A stretch of 64,000 bases of DNA, taken from positions 25,079 through 89,078 of the IMG/VR virus record IMGVR_UViG_3300032157_000004. One strand, written 5' to 3'. Below the pieces are notes generated by a model. That model saw only the letters and a program-made list of their open reading frames with translations, was not told where the DNA came from and made no database searches. The stretch is from a virus. Below are positions 1,501 to 62,901 of the stretch, piece after piece. The position numbers were made by a program, and so were the translations under genes. The number at the start of each line of letters is the position of its first letter. Position 1 is the first letter of the stretch.

Positions 1501-1890
1501 CTAAATATTTAAAATTTCGTCGGTGAGAGGAAAATTTTCTTTGCTGAGATTACGCACATACTTAGGAACATTTAACTCCTCACAGATCCCAATCATGTTG
1601 CTCGTGCCTGGACTTGAACCGTCCCACACTATGATAGCACCATCTATATAAATTGCCATCTCACGGTTGCGAATTGATCCTGCTGACTTACCGTAACGTG
1701 TCCAGTTGGCGTAAAAAGGAGTCATCAAAATGCCATGCTCTTTGGCCCACTTCACGCCCAGTCTGTCTACGCCTGGAGCCATGCCGCTAACGACTTCCGT
1801 AATCAGCTTTTCATAGCCGCTCAAAACTACAGTCTCGCAGACAAGTTCATAACTGTTGACGGTTCGGCTACCTAAGATAGCAATCTTCAT
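1501..1890 (-). CDS. YspA-like SLOG domain protein (DUF2493 type)
   Basis: This is a 129-aa Rossmann-like protein. 'MKIAILGSR' at the N-terminus, 'VVSGMAPGVDRLGVKWA' near residues 40-55 and 'IRNREMA' near residue 80 match the SLOG/YspA family related to DprA and LOG nucleotide-binding proteins, where the GSR and SG-x-APG-x-D loops bind a nucleotide-like ligand. The ATG at 1888-1890 overlaps the upstream stop (ATGA), so an in-frame extension seven codons longer is unlikely. In phages these proteins are proposed to sense or process nucleotides or NAD derivatives; the ligand here is unknown. Confidence 0.75.
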   Translation of the reverse strand: MKIAILGSRTVNSYELVCETVVLSGYEKLITEVVSGMAPGVDRLGVKWAKEHGILMTPFYANWTRYGKSAGSIRNREMAIYIDGAIIVWDGSSPGTSNMIGICEELNVPKYVRNLSKENFPLTDEILNI

Positions 1891-2345
1891 CTGTGCCAAA
1901 CTCTTTCGCACAGCTTTGTTTCAGTGCCGCGAGTGCCTAAATTTATCTCTGACCTTTCAGGAAATTTATCTGTCCATTGCTCAATTTGTTGACCATTATG
2001 AGAAATTTTTAAAAATATCTCGTCATCTCCAACAGAGTTCTCCCAGCTATCTACTGAGTCACTGATTGGAATCCACTCAGTCTTTCCAGCTTCGGCTATG
2101 ATACCTTTGAGCTTGACTACTTCACTTTTTAGCTGGTGTATGTTGACGATCAAGCCAACACGTTCCATCTCATACTCGTGGGCCATCTGGTCAATGGTAG
2201 CTTCTCGTAAAGAGCTAACCAGTTCAGCGCCGTTATGCTGAGACTCAAGAGCGCGAACTAGTCTACTAATGAACGCGTCTTGAAACTTGTAGTCGTTCCA
2301 CAAAGGTTCGACATTGATTGTCTGCGGCCACTCTGACTCACTCAT
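1887..2345 (-). CDS. Hypothetical protein, 152 aa, with coiled-coil segment
   Basis: Not recognised. The ATG is preceded by AGGAGA. Residues about 60-85 are heptad-like ('MERVGLIVNIHQLKSEVVKL') and may form a short coiled coil, followed by 'TEWIPISDSVDSW', a phrase reminiscent of the short 'W-x-P-I-S' domains in other phage proteins. Before the insertion of the IS element its start overlapped the end of the helicase gene, so its translation was probably coupled to the helicase. It now lies just behind the transposon. Confidence 0.6.
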   Translation of the reverse strand: MSESEWPQTINVEPLWNDYKFQDAFISRLVRALESQHNGAELVSSLREATIDQMAHEYEMERVGLIVNIHQLKSEVVKLKGIIAEAGKTEWIPISDSVDSWENSVGDDEIFLKISHNGQQIEQWTDKFPERSEINLGTRGTETKLCERVWHR

Positions 2346-2376: not shown

Positions 2377-2400
2377 GGCTATTCGGAATAGTGTGTTGAA
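2377..2400. repeat. Left terminal inverted repeat of the ISL3 element
   Basis: This 24-bp end matches the right end at 4626-4649 at 22 positions. The transposase stop codon (2379-2381) lies inside it, so the repeat is partly coding: its last residues 'HYSE' come from the repeat. Confidence 0.9.
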
Positions 2401-8370: not shown

Positions 8371-8483
8371 GGTTTTCTCTCCTGACGTTTTCTCTAAAAA
8401 GTTAATCTCAGCCACACTCTACATTACCACGTACGGCTCAGTCAATCCCCAAATAGCTAAATCTTTCAAAATTTGTTGAGGGA

Positions 8484-8662
8484 AGAAGCGGCTAGGGCTT
8501 GGTATCAAAGCGTGGTTAGACACTGATAGAGAAGTATCCCTAACCTACACCACTCAACAAAATAATTTTCTGGAGAGAATGCCAGTGTTGGCGGCTGGCA
8601 CTCTCCACGTTCGAGACAGACCTTACAGGAGTTCACCGATGATCCCCCGAAACATCGGCTAG
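8484..8662 (-). ncRNA. Structured non-coding segment next to tRNA-Asn (candidate Y-RNA-like or leader RNA)
   Basis: On the minus strand several strong stems occur in a row. CCGATG pairs with CATCGG. GGAGAG-TGCCAG pairs with CTGGCA-TT-CTCTCC, a 12-bp nested stem with a 2-base bulge. GGTTAG pairs with CTAACC. No open reading frame fits. It lies between tRNA-Asn and the genes leading to the TROVE protein. I cannot assign an RNA family; a Y-like RNA for the Ro60-like protein, or a 5' leader, are the options. Confidence 0.4.
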
Positions 8663-8736
8663 GCTGCTACGGTAGGACTCGAACCTACATTTTTCCGGTT
8701 AACAGCCGGATGCCTTGCCAGTCGGCCACATAGCAG
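8663..8736 (-). tRNA. tRNA-Asn (GTT)
   Basis: Minus-strand cloverleaf. The acceptor CTGCTAT pairs with GTAGCAG (one G-U). The anticodon arm is TCCGG-CTGTTAA-CCGGA with anticodon GTT, and the T-arm is GTAGG-TTCGAGT-CCTAC. CCA is not encoded. The structure is complete, so the gene is probably functional. Confidence 0.9.
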
Positions 8737-8739
8737 TAA

Positions 8740-8897
8740 TGGGTAGGGAGATACTGATCAGGTATCCTTATCGGCTTCCCTACCGAACCGAGTCTGTATC
8801 CAGACACACTAGCTGACTGTCTCTCCATTTGGCCGGAGACACGTTGTATAGCCTCTGGCCTTTGACGCCGCCAGTGACGTAAACAGATCTGTTTAGG
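8740..8897 (-). ncRNA. Structured spacer RNA between tRNA-Asn and tRNA-Asp
   Basis: On the minus strand GGTAGGGA pairs with TCCCTACC, enclosing a second stem GATAC/GTATC with a 10-nt one-sided bulge. GTCTG-GATA-CAGAC forms a tetraloop hairpin, and TGTCTCC can pair with GGAGAGACA. No coding frame is convincing. These hairpins may be tRNA-processing signals or independent small RNAs. Confidence 0.4.
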
Positions 8898-8973
8898 CGA
8901 GACTGATCAGATTTGAACTGACGATCTTCTGTTCGACAAACAGACGCATTGGCCCTGGCTATGCTACAGTCCC
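8898..8973 (-). tRNA. tRNA-Asp (GTC)
   Basis: The acceptor GGGACTG pairs with CAGTCTC (one G-U). The D-stem is GCAT/ATGC, the anticodon arm TCTGT-TTGTCGA-ACAGA with anticodon GTC, and the T-arm GTCAG-TTCAAAT-CTGAT. CCA is not encoded. This is a canonical cloverleaf. Confidence 0.9.
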
Positions 8974-9060
8974 GTAAAGAGGCTTTATAGCGGGCTGCAA
9001 CCCTTGCCTCTTGCACTACACTTATCCGAAAACGCCCACTTTCTTAATGGAGGTGAAAAA

Positions 9061-9115
9061 CTCATCGGCTGTATCTTCGCGCTCCGACTTGATTAAAGTT
9101 GGAACAGCCGATGAG
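9061..9115 (-). ncRNA. Strong nested hairpin directly 3' of tRNA-Pro
   Basis: CTCATCGGCTGT (9061-9072) is perfectly complementary to ACAGCCGATGAG (9104-9115). A second stem, CCGACTT/AAGTTGG, lies nested inside with a one-sided bulge. It starts one base after the encoded CCA of tRNA-Pro, so the two are probably co-transcribed. It may be a processing stem, a terminator-like stem without a T run, or a small RNA. Confidence 0.55.
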
Positions 9116-9116
9116 A

Positions 9117-9191
9117 TGGTCAAGGTGGCAGGAATCGAACCTGCGTGTACTTGCTCCCAAAGCAAGCGGGTGGCCTCTACCCTACACCCTG
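9117..9191 (-). tRNA. tRNA-Pro (TGG), CCA encoded
   Basis: The acceptor CAGGGTG pairs with CACCTTG. The D-stem is GGGT/ACCC, the anticodon arm CTTGC-TTTGGGA-GCAAG with anticodon TGG, and the T-arm GCAGG-TTCGATT-CCTGC. Discriminator A is followed by an encoded CCA at 9117-9119. Confidence 0.9.
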
Positions 9192-9287
9192 ATAAGCCTC
9201 GAAAGGGAGTTACCCTCTAACGATGTCGGGCATACAGCACCGTCTAGTCTTTCCTAGAAGCCAAGAAACACGTCGCTTAGTGAACGG

Positions 9288-9328
9288 ATTAAAAAGTAAG
9301 CGTTGGTTTTCAGACCTCACTTTTTAAT
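9288..9328. ncRNA. Hairpin in the tRNA spacer
   Basis: ATTAAAAAGT (9288-9297) is perfectly complementary to ACTTTTTAAT (9319-9328) around a 21-nt loop. It is A/T-rich on both arms and could work as a terminator in either direction, but it lacks a GC-rich stem base. The surrounding 9192-9373 has no convincing gene. Confidence 0.35.
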
Positions 9329-9373
9329 TAACGTAGCCGTACCTGCGGAATATTTTAGGCATATTCATACCAG

Positions 9374-9442
9374 TGGCGGGGGCCGGATTTGAACCTGCGA
9401 CCACCCTCTTAACAGGAGAAGTAACCCTTATCTAACACCACC
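9374..9442 (-). tRNA. tRNA-Asn-like gene (GTT) with short D-arm, possibly degenerate
   Basis: The acceptor GGTGGTG pairs with CCCCGCC with one mismatch. The anticodon stem-loop is TTCTC-CTGTTAA-GAGGG (anticodon GTT), and the T-arm is GCAGG-TTCAAAT-CCGGC with one mismatch. Only about 69 nt are present because positions 8-26 are shortened and no normal D-stem forms. No CCA is encoded. It shares 'GTTACTTCT' before the anticodon with the neighbour at 9721. It could be a decayed tRNA or a tRNA mimic. Confidence 0.5.
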
Positions 9443-9631
9443 GAACAATTCAGTTGTTAAAGTAAACACCTTCGGATGGTGTCGAACCATCTACTCGGCT
9501 TGTCAGGCTTTGCGTATCCCCTCCCTCCAGAGCGACAAACTTCTGTCGAGAGCGACCGAAGATGATAATATCAGGGGAAGGAGGCGAAAACAGATATTTT
9601 CGGTGCTACCGTTACACTATCTCCGCAGACG

Positions 9632-9675
9632 CTTTAGAGAGTGGATGCCTTCTGTGTCCAGAAGGCACTCTAAAG
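9632..9675 (-). ncRNA. Nested hairpin beside the tRNA-Gly-like gene
   Basis: CTTTAGAG pairs with CTCTAAAG and, inside it, GCCTTCTG pairs with CAGAAGGC around a 4-nt loop, with a 7-nt one-sided bulge. It has the same outer-stem, one-sided bulge, inner-stem design as 9061-9115. No gene overlaps convincingly. Confidence 0.45.
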
Positions 9676-9720
9676 CTGACTTCAAAAGTGTTAATGCTTG
9701 CAACGGCCACTTTTGTAGTT

Positions 9721-9790
9721 TGGAGCGGAGAGTGGGACTCGAACCCACACTCGTCTTTTGGCATAAGAAGTAACTGTTTCCTATCACCAC
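9721..9790 (-). tRNA. tRNA-Gly-like gene (GCC) with short D-arm, CCA encoded
   Basis: The acceptor GTGGTGA pairs with TCTCCGC with one T-T mismatch. The anticodon loop ATGCCAA gives GCC on a 4-bp stem (TCTT/AAGA). The T-arm GTGGG-TTCGAGT-CCCAC is perfect. Discriminator T is followed by an encoded CCA. The D-arm is reduced to a few pairs with a 4-nt loop, giving about 67 nt before CCA. The encoded CCA argues for maturation, the short D-arm against normal use in translation. Confidence 0.55.
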
Positions 9791-9895
9791 CTGATGACAT
9801 CACTATAGCATGGCGTCGGCGGCTTGTCTATCCCCAATAGGCTACATATTTTCAACAGATTTAGAAGAACGGCGGCGACTTCCATAGCCTAATGG

Positions 9896-10040
9896 CTAAA
9901 TCTGTTAAACGCCCGCAACCCCGCAAGTAGTTAATACTATATTATTGCTATTGGGTAAGGGAAAATAGTATATATAGGCTCTATAGGTAATAGGGGAGGA
10001 GTGACTACTTGTTGTAGTGGTGCGTAAACAACAGATTTAG
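9896..10040. repeat. Inverted-repeat element A (145 bp) at the end of the late block
   Basis: The ends are perfect 11-bp inverted repeats, CTAAATCTGTT (9896-9906) and AACAGATTTAG (10030-10040). Similarity continues inward through 'AAGTAGT' and 'ACTACTT' for about 38 bp on each side. The centre (about 9932-9998) is AT-rich with further small dyads. A third copy of the terminal motif lies at 9853-9865. The right half resembles the inverted left half of element B at 62721. It may be a replication or termination signal or a miniature mobile element; it follows the last gene of the late block. Confidence 0.65.
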
Positions 10041-10044
10041 ACAA

Positions 10045-10575
10045 TCAGCCATTCTTAAAAAGCCGGATCACGCTTAAACGCGAACCCCAACCGTTGCCTA
10101 AACCCGATCCAAGAAGGTTCCAGTTTGTGCCAGCACTAGCCGCCATCAGTCGATAGCGGTAGTTGATGCCAACTCTGAGGATACAATTGGTGTGGATAGA
10201 TGTGGCGCTGCCTAAAGTCGAAGCTGCCGCTGCCATCGTGCCTGGAAGTTGTGCGAAAGTACCCGTTGCCGGATCTTCTTCTATGTAGCCGTAGCCTTGA
10301 GCATCTACGCCTGTCGTCGGGCTTGCCATGACTGTGTAGTTAAAAAAATAAATTCCGGCTTCCAAAATAGTTAAGATACTAGAAGCCAAAGAAAAAATTT
10401 CCGGCGCTGAGTTCTGACGAGTCGTAATGAGAGGAACAACGATGGCAGCAATATAGGCAGACCCAAAGAAGCCGGAGTCGTACCACTCTGCCGACCAGTT
10501 GCGATCTTCTACGTCTAAGTGATCCGCCGATCCGATTTGCTGTGAATCGGTGTTTCTAAGTCCTACAGTGGGCAT
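10045..10575 (-). CDS. Putative distal virion protein, 176 aa, possibly C1q/jelly-roll-like
   Basis: This is the last gene of the late block, after the tail-tip genes. The second half is hydrophobic beta-strand-rich with aromatic strands ('AGIYFFNYTVMAS', 'NYRYRLMAAS', 'RLSVIRLF' at the C-terminus), a pattern like C1q/TNF-type jelly rolls found in phage receptor-binding proteins. I cannot confirm the family. Gene order points to a tail-tip adhesin or minor tail protein. Confidence 0.5.
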   Translation of the reverse strand: MPTVGLRNTDSQQIGSADHLDVEDRNWSAEWYDSGFFGSAYIAAIVVPLITTRQNSAPEIFSLASSILTILEAGIYFFNYTVMASPTTGVDAQGYGYIEEDPATGTFAQLPGTMAAAASTLGSATSIHTNCILRVGINYRYRLMAASAGTNWNLLGSGLGNGWGSRLSVIRLFKNG

Positions 10576-16554: not shown

Positions 16555-19500
16555 TAGTCTCTATTCAACCTCTGTACGATTCTTTCCACTCTATATTCAA
16601 ATTCGGCTGCATCAATCTTATCGGAGACATAGATCGGCCCGACCTGGACATTATTGTAAGTTGTCTGGCTCATACTTTGGTATTTTGTAGCAGCGGCTCC
16701 CTGAGAATTCATTATGGCATTCCTAAAGTTATTCAGAGAGCTTCCAAAATTTCCAGATATTTTGGCTGCATTGAGCAAGCTCTTGGACATTTGGTTGGAA
16801 AAAATTCTTGACCCAGGAGGTAAGTCTACAAATTCCGGCCCTTCTTCACCGACCAAGAGCCGACCACCCCTCCAGTATTGCATACCTGTTGCCGCACCGG
16901 AAGCTGGAGGAATTGTATCTTCTAAAGGTTTGCCGCCACCACCAGGGCTAGGTGTTTCGGGTACAACTGGTGTAGGTAGTGGATTTCCTGCCATACCCAG
17001 CGTAAAACCTTCTACAATCCCTTCCCAGATTCTTCTACCTATATCTCCAAAGGATGCAGCCGTATCGACTGGGTGAAAAATTGCCGTAGCAATTCTCTCA
17101 GCCATACCTTTAAGAACTTCAACCACAGCACTAACAGCGATTTCTCCTGCTGCTTTCCATGTCCACTTCCAGCCGCCTTCCTCATCTCCGTTAATAAATT
17201 TAGAAGTAGCAATAAGGAGAGCCGACTGCCATGATCCAGGATCGGTTGCCGGAAGCCAGGTTGCCAAGATGTCGTTTGCAGCTTTTTGTACTTCTTGCCA
17301 TGCCAGTACAAAGTCGCCATCAACTGCTAAGGCTCTAACAGCATTGCGTAAGTGACCCTGCCACGCAGATCCGCTTCCGCCGTTATCTTCTTCGGCCCAC
17401 TTACTCAACACTTCATTTGCAGCGATACGAACTTCTTTCCACGCTCCTGCCCAATCGCCACCTATAATTTTTCTGGCTGCTTCAATGGTGTGCCATTGCC
17501 ATGATCCAGTAGTGGTATTTGATTGCCACTGTCCCAAGACAACATCTGCGGCTGTTCTAACCTCTGCCCAAGCTGACGCCCACTCTCCTGAGTTAATTTT
17601 TCTGGCGGCTTCTATCGTGTGCCATTGCCATGAACCCTGACTTGTGTTAGCTTGCCACTGTCCCAGCACAACATCTGCCGCTTGACGAACCTCTGCCCAT
17701 GCAGCCCCCCACTCACCAGAGTTTATTTTTCGGGCTGCTTCAATAGTATGCCATTGCCAGCTTCCAGGCGTAGTGTTGCTCTGCCACTGGCCTAGCACAA
17801 TATCAGCGGCGGTACGAACTTCCGACCAGGCTTGCGCCCACTCGCCAGAATTTATTTTTCTAGCAGCCTCAATTGTGTGCCATTGCCACGATCCAGGCGT
17901 AGTATTGCTTTGCCACTGGCCTAAGATAATGTTGGCTGCATCCCTTGCTTCATTCCAGGCAGCAACCCACTCGCCTTCTTTAAGCAGACGCACAGCTTCG
18001 ATTAGCTTACTTTGCCAGCTACCAGGAGTTGTTTTGCTCTGAGCTTCGGCAAGTGCTTCATCCATCGCTACACCCGCCTCAAGCCATGCGTTGTACCAAT
18101 CGCCTCTGATAAATTTTTGTACAGCGCCAATCAAAGTATTCTGCCAAGTCTTGAGCGGTTGTCCTTCGGCGTCTACTTGTTTCAGAGACTCCATGCCCAG
18201 AACAAGAGCGTCCTGCATGTTAGCCCAAGCACCCACCCAGTCTCCCAGCAAAAATTTTTCTACGGAGTCTAGTAATTTATTTTGCCAGGTGTTAAGTTCG
18301 TTGCCCGCCTCATCTTTTTGCTTGAGAGTTTCCATGCCCAGAACAAGCGCATCCTGTAGACTCGACCAGGCTTTTGCCCAGTCTCCGGCAAGAAAATCCT
18401 GCACAGATTGAATAAGCTGATTTTGCCAGGTCTTGATTGGTTGGCCGTTCTCGTCAACCTCCTTCAAGGTTTCCATACCCTTGATCAGACCTTCTCTGGC
18501 TTTTGCCCATGCCTCAACCCACTTGCCCTCCAAGAAAAGCTGCACAGACGAGAGGAGAGAATTTTGCCAGCTATCAGGATTGTCGGCGTCTTTTAGTTGT
18601 TCCAAAGCATTGATAGCACCCTGACGTGCTGACGCCCAGGCTTCCGCCCACTTTCCGTCGATCATCTGCTGGACGGAAGTGATAAAAGGATCGGCCCAAT
18701 CGGGAGTAAAATCTTTTAATTTTTCCAGAGCGCCTTTGGCTGTTTCTTTAATTCTTTCCCAGACTTCATTCCAGCGCCCCTCTAAAATATCCAGAAGGAA
18801 ATCAGACCAGTCAGTATCGAAATCTCGTAGAATTTGTTTTAGAAGCTCAAATGCGCCTATAGCAACGTTAACTACTTTTCGCCATACCTCACGCCATCTT
18901 CCCTCTAAGATATCCAAGAGAAAATTTGTAAAGGGAAGGTTGAGTTCTTTAAGAGCAAACTTGATACCGTCGAAGGCGCTGATTGCCATCTGCTTGACCT
19001 GTAACCATGCCTCATACCAGTCTCCATGCACCAGATGCACAATAAACTCAGTGAAAGGCAGGTCAAGCTTGTCTAGCTCACCGATGATGAAGTTTAAAGC
19101 CTCAACTACGACGCCTCTGACCGTGCGCCACGCCTCATACCAGCGATTCTCTAAGATATCTAAGATGAAGTTGGTGAAAGGAGTGTTGAGTTCTCTTAGC
19201 TGATCTTTAATCCAGTTAAACGCAAAAGTTACCGTGTCTTTAACAGTATCCCAGACTTTTGTCCAGCGACCCTCTAAGATATCAACGATAAAGCCAGTAA
19301 ACGGATTATTTAGACTTTCTAGGAATCCAATAATTAAATTAAAAGATTTTTTGGCAATCTCGACAACATTTTCCCAGATACCCTCCCAGTCTCCCTCCAG
19401 AAGATCAAGAGCAATGTTAATAAAATTTTTGAAGAAAGGAGGAACGATTTTTTCCAACTCAATTAAAACTGTCTTGACGACCCCCAATGCCGTATTCCAG

Positions 19501-22500
19501 GCACGCTTCCAGTTGCCTGTAAAGAGGTCGTTCATAAAAGAGACAATCGGCCCACGAATCTTAGGCCAGGTTTTCTCAAAGAAAGTTCGGATACCGCCCC
19601 AGTCCGTTTCCCAAGCTTTACGGATGGTAGCGACTGCTCTGACTGCTCCCAGAATCACAGCACCCATGCGAATCAGCCCAGGCACAATATTAAGCAAAAT
19701 TGCTCCGGCTGCGGCAATAAGGACATCCTTTAGCTCCACGTTCTGAGTAATAAACTCATAAATGGGCATAAAAGTTTTTTTCAAAGAAACAATAAAATTT
19801 AATACTTGCCCAGCCGCCTCTTTAATCGTGCGCCAGATACCTTGCGCCCTCTCGATGAAGTCACGCATCCCTGGCGACATCTGATCAAACCAGTATTGAA
19901 GTTGGTCGCCGCTGAATAAAAGCTCTACCAGCCAGTGTGCGAAGGCTTGAATATTGTCGATGATTTGAGGCAGCATCCTCTCAATCCAGGGCATAGCTGC
20001 GTCGACCACACGATTGAGAAGCTGTGCGAAGCGTTCAAAAAAATTAATAATTTTATCTTGGTTCGCACCCGTTAGCGCCGTCAGCTTGTTCACCAAGTTA
20101 AAGAGCATGTCGGTGAAAGCTGCGCCCGACTTTCTCTGGATGGTCGCCCAGATATCGCCCAGGTTTCTCCATCTCGCCTGGAGAGTTTCAGTACGCACTT
20201 TGGCAGCATCCATCGCTGAGTTCTGGATTGTGATCTCATCTTTGAGCTTTCTGAACTCATCTTCACCCATGTTGACAAGACCGATGAAGGTTTCCAAAGC
20301 ATCGTTACCAAAAGTGCGGCGACCAAACTCAATGCGTTCTTCTTGGCTCAGACCCTTGACTGCCTCACGCAATTTTCCAATCATGGCGACTGTGCCAATA
20401 AATTTTCCCTGATCGTCAAAGAATGCGTTGTCGCCTGGTTTTTGCTGCTCTTTTAGCTCCTTCAAGTGCTGGGTGTGCGTCTGGAGAAGTTCGTCATAGC
20501 TATAGAGTCGGGGATCAAGCTCTGCGATTCTTTTTTCTGTCTCTGCAATCTCTTTGCTGATATCTTCAAACTCAGACTGCGACAGACCTGTAAACAGACC
20601 TACTTTTCGCATCTCGTCGGCGGCGACTTCTGTGATGGGGACAAGTCTTTGGAAGAAGTTCATTGCGCCTGTACCCGCTTGGCGCGCTGAGTGGAATAGG
20701 TTGACCGTTCCAGCAATGACAGTCGCAAAATCTTCAAAGGTTACACCCAGAGAAGCGGCGGCTGCACCACCGTTGCCCAAAGCCAAAGCCCAATCTTCTA
20801 ACTCAATTCTGGAGTTGTTGATGACACCTTGCGACACATCGGCAATGCGGTTTACCTCAGTTGCCGCCAGTCCAAACATTTGCATAGCCATCGTTGCAAT
20901 GTCAGCGGCTTGAGCAAACTCACCCCCTGTCGCATTCGCCAAGAGGATAGCGGCTTCGGCTGCGCCATTGAGAATGTTGGTCATCTCAATACCGTTACGA
21001 GCCAATTGGTCTACAACAGCGGCGGCTTCCTCTGTCGAAACAACCAGTTCAGGATCAAGCGCCAGATTGTCAATCAAGTCACCCAAAGGCGCAACTTCGG
21101 CGGCTGTCTTTCTCAAGACCGCTTGGATGTCTGCCATGTTTTGTTGGAACTGTGCTGCGCCTTCAATGGCTTCAAAGAGCCAGCCCTTAATCGCATTGCC
21201 GGAGAAAGCCAGCACTCCTGTTACGGCGGCTGTGATACCCAATAAAATATTTGTTAATTTTTGTCCCAGGTCACGATAAGCGTCTAAGGCACTTGTCGCC
21301 ATCGAACGTAAAGTTGTCACTGTGTAGCGAACGACATTGCCGATAATGGTTGTAATCGTGCGTGCCAGACTGGTCAAGATATTGACGACAGAGCTTGCCA
21401 GACTCATAAAGAGATCGGCTACCGACCGCACTAGATTTGTCACCAGTCCGATTACGCCTCTGACGATGTTTTGGAAAACACCGATCACAGACGACGCTAG
21501 ACCGGATAAGATTCTGCCGATAGAGGAGACGATGCCGGAGAAAGCACTGACAATGCCGCCCACAATATTCTGGACAACACCAAAAATATTTCTGAGGAGG
21601 GAAGCAAACGCACCGATTACAGAACTGACAATGTTCTGCACGATACTCACAATATTTTTTAGAAGGGACATGAACAGCCCGATAGCACCCGAAACAATGT
21701 TCTGGATGATACCGACGACTGTTCTGAGAAGGGACATAAAAAGGCCAGCGACCGTCGAGACGATGCTTTGCACCACCCCGATGATCGATCTTAACAGCCC
21801 TGTTAATAGTCCGATGATGGTCGATACCATGCCGCTGATGATATTAGCGACAGTTCTGACCATGCCCATAAAAAGCGATGTGATGCCGTTGACGATCATG
21901 CCGACAATCGACATCGCACTTTTGAGAACAGACGATAAAAGCCCTGTGATGACACCGCCTACCAAAGCGAAAGCATTGCCAATCAGCCCTGTAATTAGGC
22001 CCACCAGTCCGCCCAATACGCGCACGATCATGCCTGTGATAAAAGACAATGCACCGGAGATCACACCGCTGATAGCACCCAAGATACCAGTCGTTAGACC
22101 GCCCAGAAGTGTGCCGATGACTGCGCCGACTGGCCCACCCATCGCACCACCAGCCGACCCCATCATGTCCCAGATGCTACCGGATACTGTGCCGCTAGTA
22201 TTACGCATCAAAGACTGGGTAACTTTTATAGCAGCGGCTATTTGTCGCTGTGCTGACTTCTCGGCTGCGACAGCGGCTCTTTCTGCTGCTTTTTCGGCTG
22301 CTGCGGCTTTTTTATTTTCTTCCTGTAAAATTTGATTGGCGAGTCGAGTAGCATCTCTGATTTTTTTATTTACAGCTTTTTCATCGGCTACAGCTTCCTT
22401 CTCGCTATTTTTTTGTTTTTCTCTAGCAAGTTTGCTTTCTTCTTTAAGAATATCCGCCGCCATCTTAACCCTGATTTTGATCGCATTATCAGCCGCCTTT

Positions 22501-31468: not shown

Positions 31469-31862
31469 CACTGTCTTCCAAACTTTCTGCCACTTCTTCA
31501 ATGGCACTCTGTACTGCGTCGTCCGATGTAAGGTTCTCTAGGAACATGGAAATTCCCCATATTCCTGTCCAAGCTAAAAACAAATTACTAGGTACGGTCG
31601 GATATTGAAACAATAGGATGACAAAAATAGAAATGTAGGCGGCTACACACAATGGACAAGAGATGCCGCGTCCTAAATTAGATTCAGGTTTTCCATCCAC
31701 TCCATAGCTATACGCGCCCAGTTTTATTCTAACTGCTTTGAAGATTCCAATTTGCTGCTCTGATTTAGGCCACCCAATATACGGCCCCTCCAAAGAGCTT
31801 ATCAAACTGCTTAAACAGTAGACAGAAAAAACAGCAAACAAAAGCCTAATTATATCACCCAA
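31449..31862 (-). CDS. DUF1360 family membrane protein, 137 aa
   Basis: Three hydrophobic segments (about residues 5-25, 70-90, 93-110) and the phrase 'GRGISCPLCVAAYISIFVILL' match DUF1360, a family of small phage and spore-coat-associated membrane proteins with a C-P-x-C signature. The function is unknown. It overlaps the glycosyltransferase gene end, so the two are likely co-translated. Confidence 0.7.
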   Translation of the reverse strand: MGDIIRLLFAVFSVYCLSSLISSLEGPYIGWPKSEQQIGIFKAVRIKLGAYSYGVDGKPESNLGRGISCPLCVAAYISIFVILLFQYPTVPSNLFLAWTGIWGISMFLENLTSDDAVQSAIEEVAESLEDSDGRFEN

Positions 31863-32524
31863 TTTGCCAGCTTCTCCTCAAGATAAGAGACTAGCCCTTT
31901 ACGATTGCGATTCGCCATCTCCGACTTGTATACCCCGTTGACCTGTTCGTAGGTATAGCCGGATTTTTCTAGCTCGGCTTTGACCTGTTCCACTGTCATA
32001 TTCTCAGGGTTGAAGATCGGTTCCGCTGTGCTGACGATTCCAGTTGCCGTTGCGCTCGTGGTCGCCGCAGATGCCGTCATAGGCTGTGCTACAACAGCAC
32101 TTGTCACAGGCTCAGAAACTACAACAGGCTCCGGTTCCGGTTCTGTGCTTGGTACGACATCGCCTACAGGCTCCGCTGGCGGTTGTGTAGCCTCACCATT
32201 GCTTCCTACAACGACGAAAAGATATTTTCCTGTGTATTTATCTTTCTTCGCCAGGAAGCCCCGTTTTTGAGGGTCATCCTTAGATCCCAAGTCACGTTTA
32301 TCTACCCACCCACGCGGGCGATCCTTACCAAAGACATAAGTAGCACCTGTGAAGTCGCCTGTCCAGGTAGCGTCTACTTGTTCTCCCTGATACTCAATGC
32401 GCTCCATCCCCATTGCGCCGACTTGATTGGACATAGTTTTCATGCCTCCTGTTGAGAATAGAGCGGTTTTAGCATGGTTAACCACCGCCGCTCTGTTTCG
32501 ACTACTGCTGCCACAGCATCCCAT
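31850..32524 (-). CDS. Possible internally initiated C-terminal product of the glycosyltransferase fusion, 224 aa
   Basis: ATG 32522-32524 starts 'MGCCGSSSRNRA', in frame with the fusion, and is preceded by GAGGGGAG at 8 bases. Similar proteins starting with Met-Gly-Cys-Cys/Gly occur as independent genes in the head region of other phages, so this may be a second product of the same frame, carrying the Pro/Thr/Ala-rich linker and the C-terminal HeH-like helix pair without the glycosyltransferases. Confidence 0.45.
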   Translation of the reverse strand: MGCCGSSSRNRAAVVNHAKTALFSTGGMKTMSNQVGAMGMERIEYQGEQVDATWTGDFTGATYVFGKDRPRGWVDKRDLGSKDDPQKRGFLAKKDKYTGKYLFVVVGSNGEATQPPAEPVGDVVPSTEPEPEPVVVSEPVTSAVVAQPMTASAATTSATATGIVSTAEPIFNPENMTVEQVKAELEKSGYTYEQVNGVYKSEMANRNRKGLVSYLEEKLANWVI

Positions 32525-33895
32525 TGGTCGCTCCCCTCTGTATAAGGCTGGGAAAAGTCCCATAATTTTTTCTAAAAATTTTATGCGATGTCCCTCTGTG
32601 CCGTTAACCTCCGTGCGGTTCTGACCTTCTCTCCTGTAGAGATAGCCGCGCTCTCTGACATGCACACCACACCAGCCTTTAAGCCCTAATGCGACATTAA
32701 AAGCCCAATCTTCTCGACCGTCTCCCATGATAGCCGGATAGCCGCCTACTTCTTGCCAAGCCGCTCTAGGAAAGACAATTCCGGCATGGATATGGTTCTT
32801 GTAGATTAGCTTTTCAAAATCGTATTCCTCCATCGGCCAGGGTCTTGTGCGTTGATTTCTGTTAAACATCTGGATATCGTCATAAGCAAAAGAGTGAGGA
32901 TTGTCCTCACATGCCTGAACAAGATGCTCCAGAGAAAAATTTTCTCGCATATCATCGGCGGAAAGAAAAGTAATATATTTTCCCACCGCTCTTTGGATGC
33001 CGAAATTTAGCGCCTGAGCCGTGCCTACGTTAGTTTCCAGACGAAAACCCTTGATCCCCTTTGCTTCACTGACAAGTGCTTTGATGTATTCTTCGCTGTT
33101 GTCGGTTGAACAATCATCTACGATGATAACTTCAAATGATTGGAGAGTTTGAGGCTCCATTCGTCCCAGCGAACTACGGCCTCCGATGAGAGAAGCAATA
33201 CAATCTTCAAGATAACGACCGTAATTAAAGCACGGCACAACCACCGAAAGGAGAGGCGGAGTGCGTATGAAAACATCTCTCTTTTCAGGTTCTCGATCCA
33301 AAAGCTCGCGTATTCCTGATCCATATCTCTCTGTTTCTTTTCTTTCGTGATGCATCCCTGGAATATCAGGAATAGGCAGCACATTCATTCCCGCCCTAGC
33401 CACTCGCCACTGGTATTCGGCTGTGTTTCCCCAAAGAGGGTAGGTCTTTTCGTTAAGATAGCCCACAGATCGTACAGCCGCATTACTAATAAACATAAAA
33501 GTGCCATGAACATAACCCAGCTTGCCAAACGCAGGATGATCACCACGAATACGCTCACCAAAAAAGGCGTAGTGCTTTCTAGCAAGCCTAATAACTTCCA
33601 AGAAATTAAGATCATCAAACCAGATATCTTGGTTAAGAACCAACACATCCCCGCCAGCTTCTTTAATGCCTCTATTGACTGCTCCGGCGAAGTAACCTTT
33701 TCTATCCAGTCGAATAACCTTGATGTCATTGCCGTCTTGATGCTCCCATCTTTTATCGACATCCTCCTGTTTAAGAGGATCTTCACTCATGTCGTCAACA
33801 ATGATTAAAGGAAATTTTCTGGGTAAGGATCGAATCAAGCGGTCAAGAGTCGCATGGCCGTTGTAGAACGGGACAACAATGGTGAAATCACTCAC
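31850..33895 (-). CDS. Double family-2 glycosyltransferase fused to a virion-like C-terminal region, 681 aa
   Basis: Two GT-A domains lie in tandem. The first (about 1-200) has 'TIVVPFYNGHATLDRLI', 'IIVDDMSED' and 'LVLNQDIWFDD'. The second (about 215-440) has 'LSVVVPCFNYGRYLEDCI', 'VIIVDDCSTDNSE' and 'YITFLSADDMREN', all GT2 hallmarks including the metal-binding acidic residues. From about residue 457 a different protein begins with 'MGCCGSSSRNRA', as in small phage virion proteins. It ends with a helix-extension-helix-like 'MTVEQVKAELEKSGYTYEQV' region. An internal ribosome site permits separate expression of this part. Confidence 0.75.
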   Translation of the reverse strand: MSDFTIVVPFYNGHATLDRLIRSLPRKFPLIIVDDMSEDPLKQEDVDKRWEHQDGNDIKVIRLDRKGYFAGAVNRGIKEAGGDVLVLNQDIWFDDLNFLEVIRLARKHYAFFGERIRGDHPAFGKLGYVHGTFMFISNAAVRSVGYLNEKTYPLWGNTAEYQWRVARAGMNVLPIPDIPGMHHERKETERYGSGIRELLDREPEKRDVFIRTPPLLSVVVPCFNYGRYLEDCIASLIGGRSSLGRMEPQTLQSFEVIIVDDCSTDNSEEYIKALVSEAKGIKGFRLETNVGTAQALNFGIQRAVGKYITFLSADDMRENFSLEHLVQACEDNPHSFAYDDIQMFNRNQRTRPWPMEEYDFEKLIYKNHIHAGIVFPRAAWQEVGGYPAIMGDGREDWAFNVALGLKGWCGVHVRERGYLYRREGQNRTEVNGTEGHRIKFLEKIMGLFPALYRGERPMGCCGSSSRNRAAVVNHAKTALFSTGGMKTMSNQVGAMGMERIEYQGEQVDATWTGDFTGATYVFGKDRPRGWVDKRDLGSKDDPQKRGFLAKKDKYTGKYLFVVVGSNGEATQPPAEPVGDVVPSTEPEPEPVVVSEPVTSAVVAQPMTASAATTSATATGIVSTAEPIFNPENMTVEQVKAELEKSGYTYEQVNGVYKSEMANRNRKGLVSYLEEKLANWVI

Positions 33896-37295: not shown

Positions 37296-38048
37296 TTACC
37301 AGCGACGAATATCTTCTTGAAAATTTTTAAATCCTAACCTTACAAAACCTTCAAAGCCAAGCCGCTTGTGACCGCTGCGACTTAAAGTTCCTACATAGGG
37401 ATCGAATAAGCTGCCTGTGTCGATGATGGTTAGTCTCGGATAATAGGCATGAAGGCGAGAAACGAGTGTTGGAGAAGCCCCTTGACCTGCGGAAAGTAAA
37501 ATAGTGTCAGGTGCATATTTTTGAACTCTGAAACATATCTCTGCCTCTAGCTCGTCAACTTCTTCAAAAGCATGAGTTGGATGGCATTCGATATGGTATC
37601 CGATAGGAAAACCTTTTAGCTTGCTGAGATGAGAAGCGCCGACAATCAGCGACCTTCTCTTTTTCAGACACTCAATAAAAGGCCAAAGTTCCCCCTGGTC
37701 GGATGCTTTGTTCATCACGTCGGCGTCATACCAGTCAACATCTAAATTATTTTCTTGAAGCCATTGCGTTGCTCTGGTGGCATGAAGGGCTATACTGGTA
37801 ATGCCATGAGTAATGCCATTATCTCTCATCATGGCAATAAGAGCATCTGCCTGTTTGCGAGAGTAGGGAGAGCCGTCGCAGTTAATTCCCTTTTTTCCCA
37901 AAATACAGAAAAAGCCGCCATCGGAGATTCTGGCAAAGGAAAAACCAGGCTCCGTCTCAATCCGGTGTACGAATTGCCGGATGCTGAGCGGCTTCACCGA
38001 AACAGCGGGAATTTTTTCTTCGACGGTCATGCGCTTACGTCTTATCAT
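37296..38048 (-). CDS. GT-D type glycosyltransferase-like protein, 250 aa
   Basis: 'PGFSFARISDGGFFCILGKKG' near residue 35 is a variant of the R-x-G-D-G-E motif of the GT-D fold (DUF1792 family); here the last acidic residue is Gly, so activity may be altered. 'TILLSAGQGASPTLVSRLHAY' and 'TIIDTGSLFDPYVG' match the C-terminal strands of that family. ATG 38046-38048 overlaps the previous gene's end; 'MTVEEK' six codons on is an alternative start. It pairs with the GT4 gene upstream. Confidence 0.6.
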   Translation of the reverse strand: MIRRKRMTVEEKIPAVSVKPLSIRQFVHRIETEPGFSFARISDGGFFCILGKKGINCDGSPYSRKQADALIAMMRDNGITHGITSIALHATRATQWLQENNLDVDWYDADVMNKASDQGELWPFIECLKKRRSLIVGASHLSKLKGFPIGYHIECHPTHAFEEVDELEAEICFRVQKYAPDTILLSAGQGASPTLVSRLHAYYPRLTIIDTGSLFDPYVGTLSRSGHKRLGFEGFVRLGFKNFQEDIRRW

Positions 38049-39060
38049 GCACCATTCTTTCTAAGGAATTTTCTAGTTGAGAAACAACAGTATTATACGA
38101 GAACTGCTGTATAAGTTTCAAGCCCTTATTTTTTAAATTTTTTCGCAGGTCAGGTTCTTCGATTAGGCGCATAGTAGCGGCTGCCATTGCCTCCGCATCA
38201 TCGACAGGAACTCTTAGGGCTGTCTGCTCATGGATAGCAAAATCGCGGTTAGCGCCGATATCAGAGCAAACAGGAACGCAACCGCAAGCAATAGCTTCTG
38301 CCACTGGGTTACACCATCCGGCTCTGCGATGATTATCAAGGAAAGCATGACCGTGCTGGAGAAACTTGACCAACTCATACTGGGTAAACTTGCGGCCCCA
38401 GTAGGAATCCACTTCAATATCGTGCTTCTCTTTGACAAGTTCGATAGCTTTTTTAACAACCTCAGTTCCTTTTCTCTCTCTTGGGTCGCCTGAGTAAACT
38501 ACTGTAAAAGGTCTATCTTGAGGTTCTTCTGCAAGAGGAAAGAACATACTTAGGTTTATACCGCCGAAGGCTGGCCCTGCGGGATAGCCGACCTGGTTTT
38601 TCACCCATTCAAGTTGCCAGCTTGAATCTGCCAAAATTAAAAATTTTCTCTGCATGGCATCGTAAATCATTTTCTGGGCAGCGTCGTAAAAATTTTTTCC
38701 TGTCTTGAGAGCTTGCGCCATCTGCTCAGTCGGGTCAAAACCGAGAAGGCAGATCGCTTTGACTTTAGTATGGGCATTCAGTAAATGCTTGTAGAGTTCA
38801 GGTTTCCAGTCTACTATGCCAATTAAAACATCCATGTAAGCTCTATCTACTTCTTCCAGCCTCCTACAGTCAGCAAAAGAAGTCAACCACTTAACTTGGG
38901 TTCCCTCTGGATGGTAGATAGTTACCTGGTGGCCGCGCTCATGTAAAACATTTGAGACTTCGACCATCTCTCGCACCGCCCCAAAAGTCCCTACAGTGGG
39001 CGTAATCCAGCCAATATTTAACTTATTATTTTTTCTTAGCAAGTGTAGCCTCCTTGCCAA
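38035..39060 (-). CDS. GT4-family glycosyltransferase, 341 aa
   Basis: A GT-B enzyme. The N-terminal domain starts 'NIGWITPTVGTFGAVREMVEVSNVL' with the glycine-rich loop, and 'HEVTIYHPEG'-like strands follow. The C-terminal domain has 'FTVVYSGDPRERKGTEVV' and 'GWCNPVAEAIACGCVPVCSD', the GT4 E-x7-E region that binds the nucleotide sugar. It lies between the capsid gene and the GT-D gene, so it may glycosylate virion proteins or host surface molecules. Confidence 0.85.
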   Translation of the reverse strand: MARRLHLLRKNNKLNIGWITPTVGTFGAVREMVEVSNVLHERGHQVTIYHPEGTQVKWLTSFADCRRLEEVDRAYMDVLIGIVDWKPELYKHLLNAHTKVKAICLLGFDPTEQMAQALKTGKNFYDAAQKMIYDAMQRKFLILADSSWQLEWVKNQVGYPAGPAFGGINLSMFFPLAEEPQDRPFTVVYSGDPRERKGTEVVKKAIELVKEKHDIEVDSYWGRKFTQYELVKFLQHGHAFLDNHRRAGWCNPVAEAIACGCVPVCSDIGANRDFAIHEQTALRVPVDDAEAMAAATMRLIEEPDLRKNLKNKGLKLIQQFSYNTVVSQLENSLERMVHDKT

Positions 39061-58838: not shown

Positions 58839-59119
58839 GTCAGACAACCATCGAGAGGGACAAGAACGGCAACGTCACTGTACATTTTGTCTCGCAGCCG
58901 CCTAAAATTTTACGGATCACGGAACGGGCCATCCTGTTCATCTTTATGGGCAGGTCATTTTGGGCCGACTTGCCCAAAGGCTACGCCCATCTAATCCCTA
59001 GAGATAAGGAGGAAAGAGAAAAATTAGTCGAGAGAATCAACAGCCGGATCGAGAAAGATGGAGGAGAAAACCGTGAAGAAGGCAGTCAACCCGCTGCGGC
59101 GCAGGAAGATCATCCGTGA
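58835..59119 (+). CDS. Hypothetical protein, 94 aa
   Basis: Not recognised. GTG start at 58835 overlaps the upstream stop (GTGA), with GGAGGAGGAG ahead. Strands 'GNVTVHFVSQPPKILRIT' and 'AILFIFMGRSFWADLP' precede a charged helix. It overlaps the ParB-like gene by 62 bases. Confidence 0.45.
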   Translation: MSQTTIERDKNGNVTVHFVSQPPKILRITERAILFIFMGRSFWADLPKGYAHLIPRDKEEREKLVERINSRIEKDGGENREEGSQPAAAQEDHP

Positions 59120-60089
59120 TAAGGCACAGGTTAGCCGTATCGAAGAAATGATTGTCGGGCAGTATGTTCAAAAACGTGTCGCTCAAGTTCTTGATGAGCA
59201 GAGAAAATATACAGGAGATAAATCCATGAAAAATCCAGAGTCCGTGATCGATGTCTATGAGGAACTGATGTATGGGGAAGAAACCACTGTAGTTGATGTC
59301 GGAGAGGATATCTACGAAAAAGATATAAAAATTTATTCATCGACTGACTACAATAAATTTTCTTTGGTACACTCTAATCGTCCGGTCAACTACGACCGTG
59401 TAAACCGCATGGTTAAAGCGATTCGCGAAGGAAGCAACTACCTCTCCAACTACCCGATCCTCATCAACTCCGACTTTGAGATTATTGATGGGCAACACCG
59501 CCATGCGGCTGCTAGGCTTGCTCAGGTCAAACTCTATTACAAGTTTGCCTTCGACATGGATATGGGCGATGCCGCCAAAGCAGTTTCCAATACAAAAAGC
59601 TGGATGATGAGCGACTGGCTACACCACTACGCTGAACTGGGATTTCCAGAGTATGTCAAGCTCAGAGATTTTTGGAAGCAATATGAGTGGCTGCCTGTGT
59701 CGATGCTGATCGGGCTGTCAAGCAGCCGCAAATATACGGCGGCAATTTTTAATGGGGGCCACTACCAGACCAACACGCTTGACCATGCCAAACGTGTGAT
59801 CGACCTGATCTCTTTCTTCAAGCCTTTTGCGCCGACTTACTGGAAAACAGCGGCATTTATGCAAACCTTGTCCAGTCTCGCCGCCAACCCCCTCTACATG
59901 CACAAGAGGATGCAAGACAAGATGAAAACGCAGTCCTCACGGCTGACTCGACAGGCAACAGTGGAGAGCTATCTGATTTTGCTTTCCGAGATCTACAACT
60001 ATCGAGTCGCGCCGGAGAACCGCGCCTTCTTTGACGAAGCCTACCGCCGCCGCCGCACCCAAGCCAGGGAAGATGCCGCTACAGAATGA
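59058..60089 (+). CDS. ParB-like nuclease-domain protein, 343 aa
   Basis: Residues about 105-165 show the ParB/Srx-type domain: 'RPVNYDRVNRMVKAIREG', 'YPILINSDFEIIDGQHRHAA' with the D-G-Q-H-R motif (the usual G-x-H-R box that binds nucleotide or DNA). Around it are helical regions, and the C-terminus is a basic 'RRRRTQAREDAA'. Phage ParB-like proteins act in replication, transcription control or counter-defence. No ParA partner is visible. It is the longest gene of the plus-strand block and precedes the four-paralogue array. Confidence 0.75.
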   Translation: MEEKTVKKAVNPLRRRKIIRDKAQVSRIEEMIVGQYVQKRVAQVLDEQRKYTGDKSMKNPESVIDVYEELMYGEETTVVDVGEDIYEKDIKIYSSTDYNKFSLVHSNRPVNYDRVNRMVKAIREGSNYLSNYPILINSDFEIIDGQHRHAAARLAQVKLYYKFAFDMDMGDAAKAVSNTKSWMMSDWLHHYAELGFPEYVKLRDFWKQYEWLPVSMLIGLSSSRKYTAAIFNGGHYQTNTLDHAKRVIDLISFFKPFAPTYWKTAAFMQTLSSLAANPLYMHKRMQDKMKTQSSRLTRQATVESYLILLSEIYNYRVAPENRAFFDEAYRRRRTQAREDAATE

Positions 60090-60495
60090 GATCGTCATTC
60101 GTGCCGACGCACGGAGGCTGATCGATAAACTGAAAAAATTAGCCAAGATGATTCCACTTACCTACTATGTGGTAGCGGCACAGAGCTATGAGGCTTACCG
60201 GAACTGGTGTCACAGACATAAGTTGGCACAGGGACTCAAAAGCAATACCCGCTACCTCAATATTAGACAACAGACACAGGGGGTAGACTACCAGCTAGTC
60301 TACCTCCCTGGCTGGGAGAGCAATGAGGTATTCAAACAGACACCTGGATCTGTCTCCCAAGTCAGACAAGATGCAAAAGCAATCTACTATTCCGGCTCTG
60401 AGACAGCCGACGACGACACACCTGTCGCCAATGAAGATGGGCAGATTACAGGCTGGCGCTGCCGCCTGAACCCGATCACACAGGATAGAGCATGA
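60073..60495 (+). CDS. Paralogue 1 of an unrecognised four-member family, 140 aa
   Basis: Start at ATG 60073 with AGGGA close upstream (an in-frame TTG at 60031 is an alternative). Core motifs shared with the three following genes: 'YYVVAAQSYEAYRNWC', 'TRYLNIRQ', 'YQLVYLPGWES', 'AKAIYYSGSETADDDTPVAN' and 'GQITGWRCRL'. The 'V-Y-L-P-G-W' strand resembles the L-P-G-W motif of Rossmann-like DUF4406/deoxyribosyltransferase-type proteins, but no active site is evident. Function unknown. Confidence 0.7.
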   Translation: MPLQNEIVIRADARRLIDKLKKLAKMIPLTYYVVAAQSYEAYRNWCHRHKLAQGLKSNTRYLNIRQQTQGVDYQLVYLPGWESNEVFKQTPGSVSQVRQDAKAIYYSGSETADDDTPVANEDGQITGWRCRLNPITQDRA

Positions 60496-60830
60496 AAAAT
60501 TTAAAAATTTTACCGCATTTATTTATTGCTTACAGCCAGATACAGCTAAGAGACTGGGCGACCAGACATCGTATCAACATCCACAACGGGCTGACTCATT
60601 TTGTCAACGGGCAGAACAATCTGCCCGTTCTGAACTCTTTTGTCTTGGTCTATCTGCCCCGCTGGGCAGAGTCGCCTTTCTGGAATGAGAACCAGGACTT
60701 GTCGGGTTTCCTCAGAAGCCGCGCCTGTGCCGTCTACCACGCCGACATCGGCACGAATGTTCCCGTCGTGCTGTCGGGGCGCATTATCGAGTGGACATTC
60801 AAGGTGGAGCTAGAGGGCCGGAGGAACTGA
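60492..60830 (+). CDS. Paralogue 2 of the four-member family, 112 aa
   Basis: The most divergent and shortest member. 'LFIAYSQIQLRDWATRHRIN', 'FVLVYLPRWAESPF', 'RACAVYHADIG', 'NVPVVLSGRIIEWTFKVEL' align with the shared motifs, but the 'G-W' and 'A-D-D-D' positions are changed (PRW; ADIG), so it may have lost or altered the common activity. ATGA overlap with paralogue 1; overlaps paralogue 3 by 40 bases. Confidence 0.65.
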   Translation: MKNLKILPHLFIAYSQIQLRDWATRHRINIHNGLTHFVNGQNNLPVLNSFVLVYLPRWAESPFWNENQDLSGFLRSRACAVYHADIGTNVPVVLSGRIIEWTFKVELEGRRN

Positions 60831-61306
60831 TGGGAATCTTACTTGACTGGTCAAAGAATATCGTTGTTTCCAGCCGTGCCGTTCTGAAGTTTGATCCGGC
60901 TACTTCCGACTTCGACCCTAGCTCCCCTTACCCGCCGACTTCGTTTGACTCTGTGCCTGTGATTACATCTTTTGGCCCTCCCCCGCTCTGGTATGTAGTC
61001 TTAGCCAAAGAGATTGCCGCCTATGATATGTGGACACGCTTGTACGGCATTAGCCACCACCGCAGCGATACCCGCTATTTTATCGGTGGCTGGAACCCCA
61101 TCTACTACAATGTTGATGTTGTGGCGGTCTGTCTGGCGGGCTGGGAGGAGAATCCAGATTATAACCTGAGAGAGCTACAGGAGCTTTTCAGAGAGGCCAA
61201 AGATGTCTTTTTCTGTGGGGGCCAACAGGCAGTTGATGATGTCCCTGTGGTCGATAAGGATGGAAAGATTACGGGCTGGACATATGGGCTGGTGAGGTTG
61301 GCCTAA
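60791..61306 (+). CDS. Paralogue 3 of the four-member family, 171 aa
   Basis: Shared core motifs: 'WYVVLAKEIAAYDMWTRLYG', 'DTRYFIGGW', 'VVAVCLAGWEEN', 'AKDVFFCGGQQAVDDVPVVD', 'GKITGWTYGLVRL'. An N-terminal 65-residue extension is Pro/Ser-rich. The first in-frame ATG lies inside the preceding gene; a later ATG, 'MGILLDWSKN' at 60830, has AGGAAC upstream and may be the true start. Its stop overlaps the next ATG (TAATG). Confidence 0.65.
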   Translation: MDIQGGARGPEELMGILLDWSKNIVVSSRAVLKFDPATSDFDPSSPYPPTSFDSVPVITSFGPPPLWYVVLAKEIAAYDMWTRLYGISHHRSDTRYFIGGWNPIYYNVDVVAVCLAGWEENPDYNLRELQELFREAKDVFFCGGQQAVDDVPVVDKDGKITGWTYGLVRLA

Positions 61307-61761
61307 TGGCAACGATGAACAAAGCCCCAGGTCGAGTCGCCAAAGGAATGCCAGGGCGCACGATCAAGGCGGGGGGAGCGACAGGGGGAGCCTTATGGCC
61401 GATGGACAACGAGTCAGGAAAAGGCGCACCGCATATCGTCTTGGCGAAAGAAGGAGCCGACTACCAGTGGTGGTGTGGCTACTGGGGACTGAGGACGACG
61501 GAATCTGGAGGCAATGTGCGCTACTACAACCATCTTAGCCCTTCAATCGGGGTGGACTGGCCCTACAACATCATCTGTCTGCCTGGATGGGATCAGTCAA
61601 TCGTGGTGCGTGTCAACTCCAACGCCAGGGACAGGATTGTCGTGATGTTAGAACAGGCAATCCACATCTTCTACTCCGGCTCAAAAGCCGCCGATGACGA
61701 CTGCCCGATTGTCTTGAGAGGGATTGTGGTGGGCTGGACATATAGGGGGATGAAACTATGA
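61306..61761 (+). CDS. Paralogue 4 of the four-member family, 151 aa
   Basis: Shared core: 'HIVLAKEGADYQWWCGYWGL', 'VRYYNHLS', 'YNIICLPGWDQS', 'AIHIFYSGSKAADDDCPIVL', 'GIVVGWTYRGMKL'. The N-terminal 40 residues are Gly/Lys-rich and probably disordered. It begins in the TAATG overlap with paralogue 3 and ends in an ATGA overlap with the ribbon-helix-helix-like gene. Confidence 0.65.
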   Translation: MATMNKAPGRVAKGMPGRTIKAGGATGGALWPMDNESGKGAPHIVLAKEGADYQWWCGYWGLRTTESGGNVRYYNHLSPSIGVDWPYNIICLPGWDQSIVVRVNSNARDRIVVMLEQAIHIFYSGSKAADDDCPIVLRGIVVGWTYRGMKL

Positions 61762-62000
61762 GCGATCTGTTGGGGAGAAGCGGAGGTGTTACCAGTGTCA
61801 CAGAGGAAGAACGACTCTCGACAAAGGAAGTCGGGGAGATACGCAAACACACGCTTAATATTCCCGTTGGCATCTACCGCGAAGTGGAATATATCGCCAC
61901 AATTGAAAATTTATCTTTTGCCAAAACAATTGCGCTGATCTTACGCAAGGGAGTGCAGACATGGCGCAAAGAACAGAAAGACAAAGAGGAGAAAAAATGA
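61758..62000 (+). CDS. Ribbon-helix-helix-like DNA-binding protein, 80 aa
   Basis: Residues 32-70 ('HTLNIPVGIYREVEYIATIE' then 'LSFAKTIALILRKGVQTW') fit a MetJ/Arc-type ribbon-helix-helix: an N-terminal strand followed by two helices with an 'A-x-x-I-x-x-I-L' core. The N-terminal 30 residues are flexible. ATGA overlaps on both sides tie it to paralogue 4 and the next gene. It may regulate the plus-strand block. Confidence 0.65.
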   Translation: MSDLLGRSGGVTSVTEEERLSTKEVGEIRKHTLNIPVGIYREVEYIATIENLSFAKTIALILRKGVQTWRKEQKDKEEKK

Positions 62001-62272
62001 GCGATAAAATTTTTTCGGACGGTAAAGGCAACGACAAAAAAGTGATGGAATACATGCTCCTCCATCACTCGGAAAAATTTTTAATCAACGACGACGGCAT
62101 CTCCAATTTTATTATGATGCACGACGACTGGTGTCCCAGGCTGAGAGGGGCCGCCTGTGAATGCGTCCCCGATATTTATTTTTCCTTCGACAAAGACATC
62201 CCTGTGGGAAGTAAAGTCGATTATCCAGTGCATGAAGTGCTGGGGCCGGAGTATGAAGGAGGGGTGATCTAG
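61997..62272 (+). CDS. Hypothetical protein, 91 aa, last gene of the plus-strand block
   Basis: Not recognised. ATG 61997 overlaps the upstream stop (ATGA) and follows GAGGAG. It contains 'HHSEKFLINDDGISNF' and a Cys-containing segment 'DWCPRLRGAACECVPDIYFS' with three cysteines. It is followed directly by the block terminator. Confidence 0.5.
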   Translation: MSDKIFSDGKGNDKKVMEYMLLHHSEKFLINDDGISNFIMMHDDWCPRLRGAACECVPDIYFSFDKDIPVGSKVDYPVHEVLGPEYEGGVI

Positions 62273-62304: not shown

Positions 62305-62335
62305 GGGGTGAGCGACAAGTTCACCCCTTTTTTAT
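62305..62335 (+). terminator. Intrinsic terminator at the end of the plus-strand block
   Basis: GGGGTGA (62305-62311) pairs with TCACCCC (62321-62327), followed by TTTTTTATTT. Three copies of GGGGTGAAAA-like sequence lie just upstream (62275-62310) and could offer alternative stems. Confidence 0.85.
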
Positions 62336-62720: not shown

Positions 62721-62901
62721 AAATCTGTTGATTCCACACCACTACTACAAGTAGTTGCCACTCGTTCAATGCCCCTAACTCCTTATATTATACAATATAC
62801 CCTCCAGCCTATATATACCCTATATATTATATATTATATTGAGTCTACGCGTTACTCACACAGATAACTACTAGTTTTAGTTAGGGGCATTCAACAGATT
62901 T
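62721..62901. repeat. Inverted-repeat element B (181 bp)
   Basis: AAATCTGTTGA (62721-62731) is the inverted copy of TCAACAGATTT (62891-62901). Similarity continues inward through 'AAGTAGTT' and 'AACTACT', and a second inner pair, CAATGCCCCTAACT and AGTTAGGGGCATTC, exists. The centre (about 62780-62840) is very AT-rich with TATATA runs. The outer half (62721-62757) matches the inverted right half of element A (about 10003-10040). No gene lies inside. Confidence 0.65.

Follow-up and report, generated by a model that had tools for sequence, protein, structure and literature searches.

Four diverged tandem paralogues of an orphan phage protein family with a probable Rossmann-like fold

Layout of the array

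The window analysed here is a 64,000-base stretch of DNA at the very end of a virus record of 89,078 bases, and its array of four genes, called copies A to D, is listed with the other features in Table 1. The original prediction had placed four consecutive, overlapping genes at 60073-61761, and these coordinates proved right: the array is compact, and with the predicted starts the overlaps are 4 nt between A and B, 1 nt between B and C, and 1 nt between C and D. With overlaps of 1-4 nt between the reading frames, coupled translation of A-D is probable. The ParB-like gene lies directly upstream of copy A and overlaps it by 17 nt, and because this overlap is accompanied by two short genes and a strong terminator-like site downstream, the array very probably sits within one predicted polycistronic unit. 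The four proteins had also been described as keeping different N-terminal extensions, which was borne out for A, C and D but not for B. We are less sure of the extension of D than of the extension of C, because an internal ATG at 61402 is a possible start in D, whereas a clear GGAGG stands in front of the predicted start of C (ATG 60830).

Table 1 Features of the window
Feature	Position	Strand	Description
Copy A	60073-60495	+	140 aa; N-terminal helix, core and C-terminal hairpin (AlphaFold2 model, paralogy tests)
Copy B	60492-60830	+	112 aa; most diverged; no N-terminal extension; LPRW replaces LPGW, DDD gone (alignment)
Copy C	60830-61306	+	158 aa; ~50-residue Pro/Ser-rich N-terminal extension (low-confidence model, paralogy tests)
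Copy D	61306-61761	+	151 aa; ~40-residue basic Gly/Ala-rich N-terminal extension; alternative start 61402
ParB-like-domain protein	59058-60089	+	343 aa; phrog_12305 ParB-like partition protein, E 9.3e-24
Short, weakly Arc-like (ribbon-helix-helix) protein in the unit of the array	61758-62000	+	phrog_582, E 0.008
Final gene ahead of the terminator-like site	61961-62272	+	ORF; no family match
Intrinsic-terminator-like site	62305-62327	+	9-pair stem, 6 G-C, T run
SLOG-family YAcAr/DprA-like protein	1501-1911	-	PF10686, E 1.2e-10
ISL3-family transposase	2379-3785	-
TROVE/Ro60-like gene just downstream of a tRNA cluster	6700-8022 and 8400-10045	-	PF05731, E 2e-18, vWA domain
Glycosyltransferases, families 2 and 1	31850-33895 and 38035-39060	-	among late genes
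Similar intergenic elements	62721-62901 and about 9880-10040		compared by eye only

The flanking genes raise the alternative that the array forms part of a cassette for genome maintenance or regulation, in which the copies would act on phage DNA or on regulators. The ParB-like (E 9e-24) and weakly Arc-like (E 0.008) neighbours and the overlapping frames are consistent with such a cassette, but A-D carry no recognised DNA-binding motif, none of the genes examined was recognised as ParA, and ParB-like domains in phages frequently have other roles. We consider this alternative decidedly unlikely.

Paralogy and divergence of the four copies

Pairwise local-alignment scores were compared with those of 1000 shuffles (Gumbel p), and neighbouring proteins served as controls. 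All six pairs exceeded the shuffled sequences: A-C (score 143, p 2e-15), A-D (127, p 1e-12), C-D (120, p 1e-11), A-B (72, p 1e-6), B-C (61, p 5e-5) and B-D (49, p 9e-4), while control pairs with neighbouring proteins gave chance-level scores only. When copy A was searched over the whole record by tblastn, C (1.7e-13), D (3.9e-11) and B (3.3e-4) were recovered, and no fifth copy was found either in this search or in a profile search of all 89,078 bases. At the level of sequence, A-D are thus confirmed as true paralogues, with exactly four copies in the record. The claim that the four proteins align as one family was upheld, and so was their strong divergence.

The motif pattern described earlier (an N-terminal helix motif, RY, a strand ending in LPGW, SGSxxADDDxPV and a terminal GxIxGW) is present on the alignment of A-D. 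Besides Met1, the residues invariant in all four copies are A36, W45, L78, W81, A101, P117, G123 and W128 (A numbering); all are hydrophobic, Gly, Pro or Trp, and none is polar. It is in part the most degenerate copy, B, that leaves the array without an invariant polar residue, because A, C and D share R60, D72, D114 and D115, and among others also Y61. LPGW or a close variant stands at the strand end throughout the array, as LPGW in A and D, LAGW in C and LPRW in B. Copy B, the weakest member of the family, has in addition lost both SGS and DDD while keeping the scaffold, in agreement with the earlier statement that one copy had lost key positions. Such losses would fit a neutral expansion, in which the copies drift under weak selection and have no separate jobs. 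However, all four frames have stayed open despite very large divergence and keep the same Trp, Gly and Pro residues, which suggests selection, and a neutral expansion is very unlikely in our judgement.

Search for homologues

No convincing family match for A-D was obtained from Pfam, NCBIfam or PADLOC, so that the family is indeed unrecognised, as had been supposed. The best PHROG was phrog_32247, a group of unknown function that matched residues 32-88 of copy A with E 0.004, and no member of it was found in either of two phages tested. IMG/VR was scanned for conserved peptides of the four-sequence alignment, of A, C and D only, of the terminase and of the ParB-like gene, and no true homologue emerged; GTDB genome contigs, scanned with three of the copies or with the transposase as query, gave no match. 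Similarly, tblastn of A, C and D against 50,697 INPHARED phages returned nothing below about E 2, and tblastn of C against 72,556 plasmids returned no match whatever. An approximate consensus of a small Rossmann-like phage family, used as a query, also found no match, a result to which we attach no weight. DNA-pattern scans with the SG..ADDD.P and VYLPGW motifs had one informative catch, a DUF4406 protein. Two IMG/VR loci were matched by a DGxITGW-like stretch alone and were rejected as chance: a gene of 91 aa flanked by two large, repetitive, tail-like genes (L005), and a gene in a prohead-protease-like position between portal-like and capsid-like genes (L018). Scans of this kind depend on a conserved short peptide or on full similarity that can be recognised; they exclude close relatives, and distant ones could escape them.

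By these detectable-similarity searches, the A-D family is an orphan among the databases searched. The rest of the phage is likewise isolated on sequence comparison, its terminase being about 24-26% identical to known phages in the best matches, and the phage is previously unclassified. Within its record lies an ISL3-family transposase, whose closest plasmid copies among the matches listed are 41-47% identical and spread across Bacillota and Pseudomonadota.

Predicted fold

AlphaFold2 models were built on the four-row alignment of A-D. The model of copy A had a mean pLDDT of 70.8 and a pTM of 0.63, with a core mostly at about 76-90 and lower values near residues 61-70. Strands were predicted at residues 31-35, 59-61, 73-77, 103-106, 116-119 and 125-129 and helices at 11-23, 39-48, 85-89 and 91-100, giving a beta-alpha-beta-beta-alpha-beta core followed by a C-terminal hairpin. 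The core model of copy C shows the same order of elements but reached a pLDDT of only 51 and is supportive only. A-D therefore probably share a simple Rossmann-like alpha/beta fold of the nucleotide-binding type, as judged from these models, but lack the active-site residues customary for it. The Rossmann-like idea of the original prediction is in this way supported by the model of A and, at low confidence, by that of C.

In Foldseek searches with the model of A, no useful match was found in the PDB and nothing reached E 0.001 among viral proteins. Three of the best viral matches were uncharacterised phage proteins of 75-93 aa (probability 0.85-0.99, E 0.02-0.24). The element order of A and C agrees with the core of such small Rossmann-like phage proteins, but the models are shallow and the Foldseek E values are at least 0.02. 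One match was a 93-aa protein of Pseudomonas phage pf16 (E 0.05, probability 0.99), which is likely to be gp135 from its length and its sequence and element order; gp178 of pf16 also has 93 aa but is thioredoxin-like, and gp135 fits better. By eye, the sequence of gp135 follows the same beta-alpha-beta-beta-alpha-beta order as the array and has VLP where the array has YLP, whereas its sequence similarity is not significant (hhalign E 0.16) and it has no evident C-terminal hairpin. For a match in phage Pterodactyl, no such gene was found in DrRobert, a phage of the same species. Since another match, Brochothrix A9 gp124, carries a ribonucleotide reductase subunit annotation, it speaks only for a general Rossmann-type fold.

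Comparison with DUF4406 and SLOG proteins

The LPGW strand had been proposed to recall nucleotide-handling families such as DUF4406 or SLOG. DUF4406 proteins (PF14359; annotated in phages as nucleoside deoxyribosyltransferase-like) are, like the array proteins, short alpha/beta proteins, and they are common in phages. The protein caught with the pattern VYLPGW[DE] belongs to DUF4406 (family match E 4e-26) and was aligned with ten further phage DUF4406 proteins, giving a set of 11 members. With this pattern-selected member included, hhalign of the array against DUF4406 gave E 2e-5 to 4e-5; without it, E was 8e-5 to 1.4e-4 (probability 61% in the comparison with E 8e-5). The alignment spans only 14-15 columns, namely the strand-LPGW-xx-S/N stretch, which was the best-scoring profile match and lies between a strand and a helix in the array. 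The real profile scored 33, against at most 16 for 40 column-shuffled DUF4406 profiles; over the 14-column stretch the DUF4406 match outscored nearly all of 354 control proteins, and when 365 proteins were ranked singly, DUF4406 members made up 9 of the first 12.

Two motifs found in all 11 aligned DUF4406 members, the GP-x-x-G loop following the first strand and S-x-G-[AC]-x-x-E following LPGW, occur in none of the four array proteins, and their absence places A-D outside DUF4406. Furthermore, the array adds a C-terminal hairpin and the full-length match is not significant. A circular permutation, considered because IYYSGSxxADDDxP resembles the DUF4406 N-terminus, was not supported: a doubled DUF4406 profile did not extend the alignment. 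Pfam DUF4406 had no match at E<=1 for A-D and none anywhere in the record, no SLOG profile of Pfam matched A-D, and hhalign with the YAcAr protein of the same phage gave E 0.09 over 10 columns. That SLOG-family protein is a recognisable nucleotide-binding protein. The proposed link was thus partly supported, by a short stretch in common with DUF4406, and no SLOG match was obtained; we read the LPGW stretch as a local element that two similar folds share, which would agree with distant common ancestry but also with convergence.

It could still be argued that A, C and D actively handle nucleotides or nucleosides as proteins of the DUF4406, SLOG or deoxyribosyltransferase type, either enzymes or ligand sponges, and that B is dead. 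This would agree with the profile match, with the ranking and with the Asp and Arg residues common to A, C and D, through which these copies could still bind or convert a ligand. However, the alignment is short, both DUF4406 motifs are missing, and the library that matches no DUF4406 in the record does recognise the YAcAr gene of this phage. We regard active nucleotide handling as unlikely.

Possible function of the array

The lack of any invariant polar residue or catalytic motif, together with the missing DUF4406 motifs, makes a binding role of A-D most likely in preference to an enzymatic one, while strong divergence on a kept scaffold and differing N-terminal extensions suggest different partners. 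In our preferred reading, to which we give a probability of roughly 40%, one small alpha/beta protein, a Rossmann-like binding protein that is not an enzyme, would have expanded in tandem specifically within this phage lineage, and each copy would have its own partner. The predicted core contains the strand-LPGW-helix element, and the predicted C-terminal hairpin bears the conserved DDxPV and GxIxGW. The copies would act by binding; each would have retained the scaffold and fitted its surface and N-terminal extension to a different partner, probably a host protein or signal molecule encountered in infection.

The main rival to separate partners is a fixed four-copy complex, in which A-D would be specialised subunits of one hetero-oligomeric particle, co-translated for a fixed proportion, with B as a structural subunit whose ligand-site residues are dispensable. 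The overlapping frames within a single predicted transcription unit, the retention of four open frames despite strong divergence, and the loss of loop motifs from B with its scaffold intact all agree with such a particle, but differing extensions are equally expected if the partners differ. On balance we place the complex on the unlikely side.

For separate partners, an anti-defence role, as suggested in the original prediction, would fit and is a guess: PADLOC, Pfam and the gene neighbourhood gave no pointer to a particular defence system, the single weak PADLOC match (E 0.013) being to copy A. Tad1, Tad2 and Acb2 are phage signal sponges, small non-enzymatic binding proteins that block host defence (PMC12043709), and the array might work in a similar way. 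The reported sponge architectures (four strands followed by two long C-terminal helices in one, and all-helical in Acb2; PMC12043709) are unlike the predicted model of the array. It would be a long shot that the array is a catalytically dead, remodelled DUF4406/SLOG offshoot, expanded in tandem so that every copy would trap an immune signal nucleotide, or block a host effector, of its own. If the DUF4406 link were true, it would show how several binding proteins can be made from one enzyme-like fold. Rapidly diverging tandem paralogues of phages are a good hunting ground for host-interaction genes, and since one genome here holds four variants of one small scaffold, comparison of their partners would directly test whether such expansions track several targets.

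Other features of the phage and further loci

The tRNA cluster by the TROVE/Ro60-like gene comprises tRNAs for Asn, Asp and Pro and a fourth call, Asn, unconfirmed by Rfam. No Rfam match to a Y RNA at the gathering threshold was found by this gene; further tRNA-like fragments lie on the strand of the cluster, and some of them could be Y-RNA-like partners of the Ro60-like protein. The two similar intergenic elements have the ends AAATCTGTTG... and ...AACAGATTT, and each contains a ACCACTACnACAAGTAGT block and an AT-rich middle; they are possibly a shared regulatory or replication element. Glycosyltransferases of families 2 and 1 occur among the late genes. Locus L006 encodes, at 17326-19917 (minus strand), a primase with the archaeo-eukaryotic primase domain of TOTE conflict systems (PF22548, E 3e-20); a family A DNA polymerase lies close by, in locus L007.
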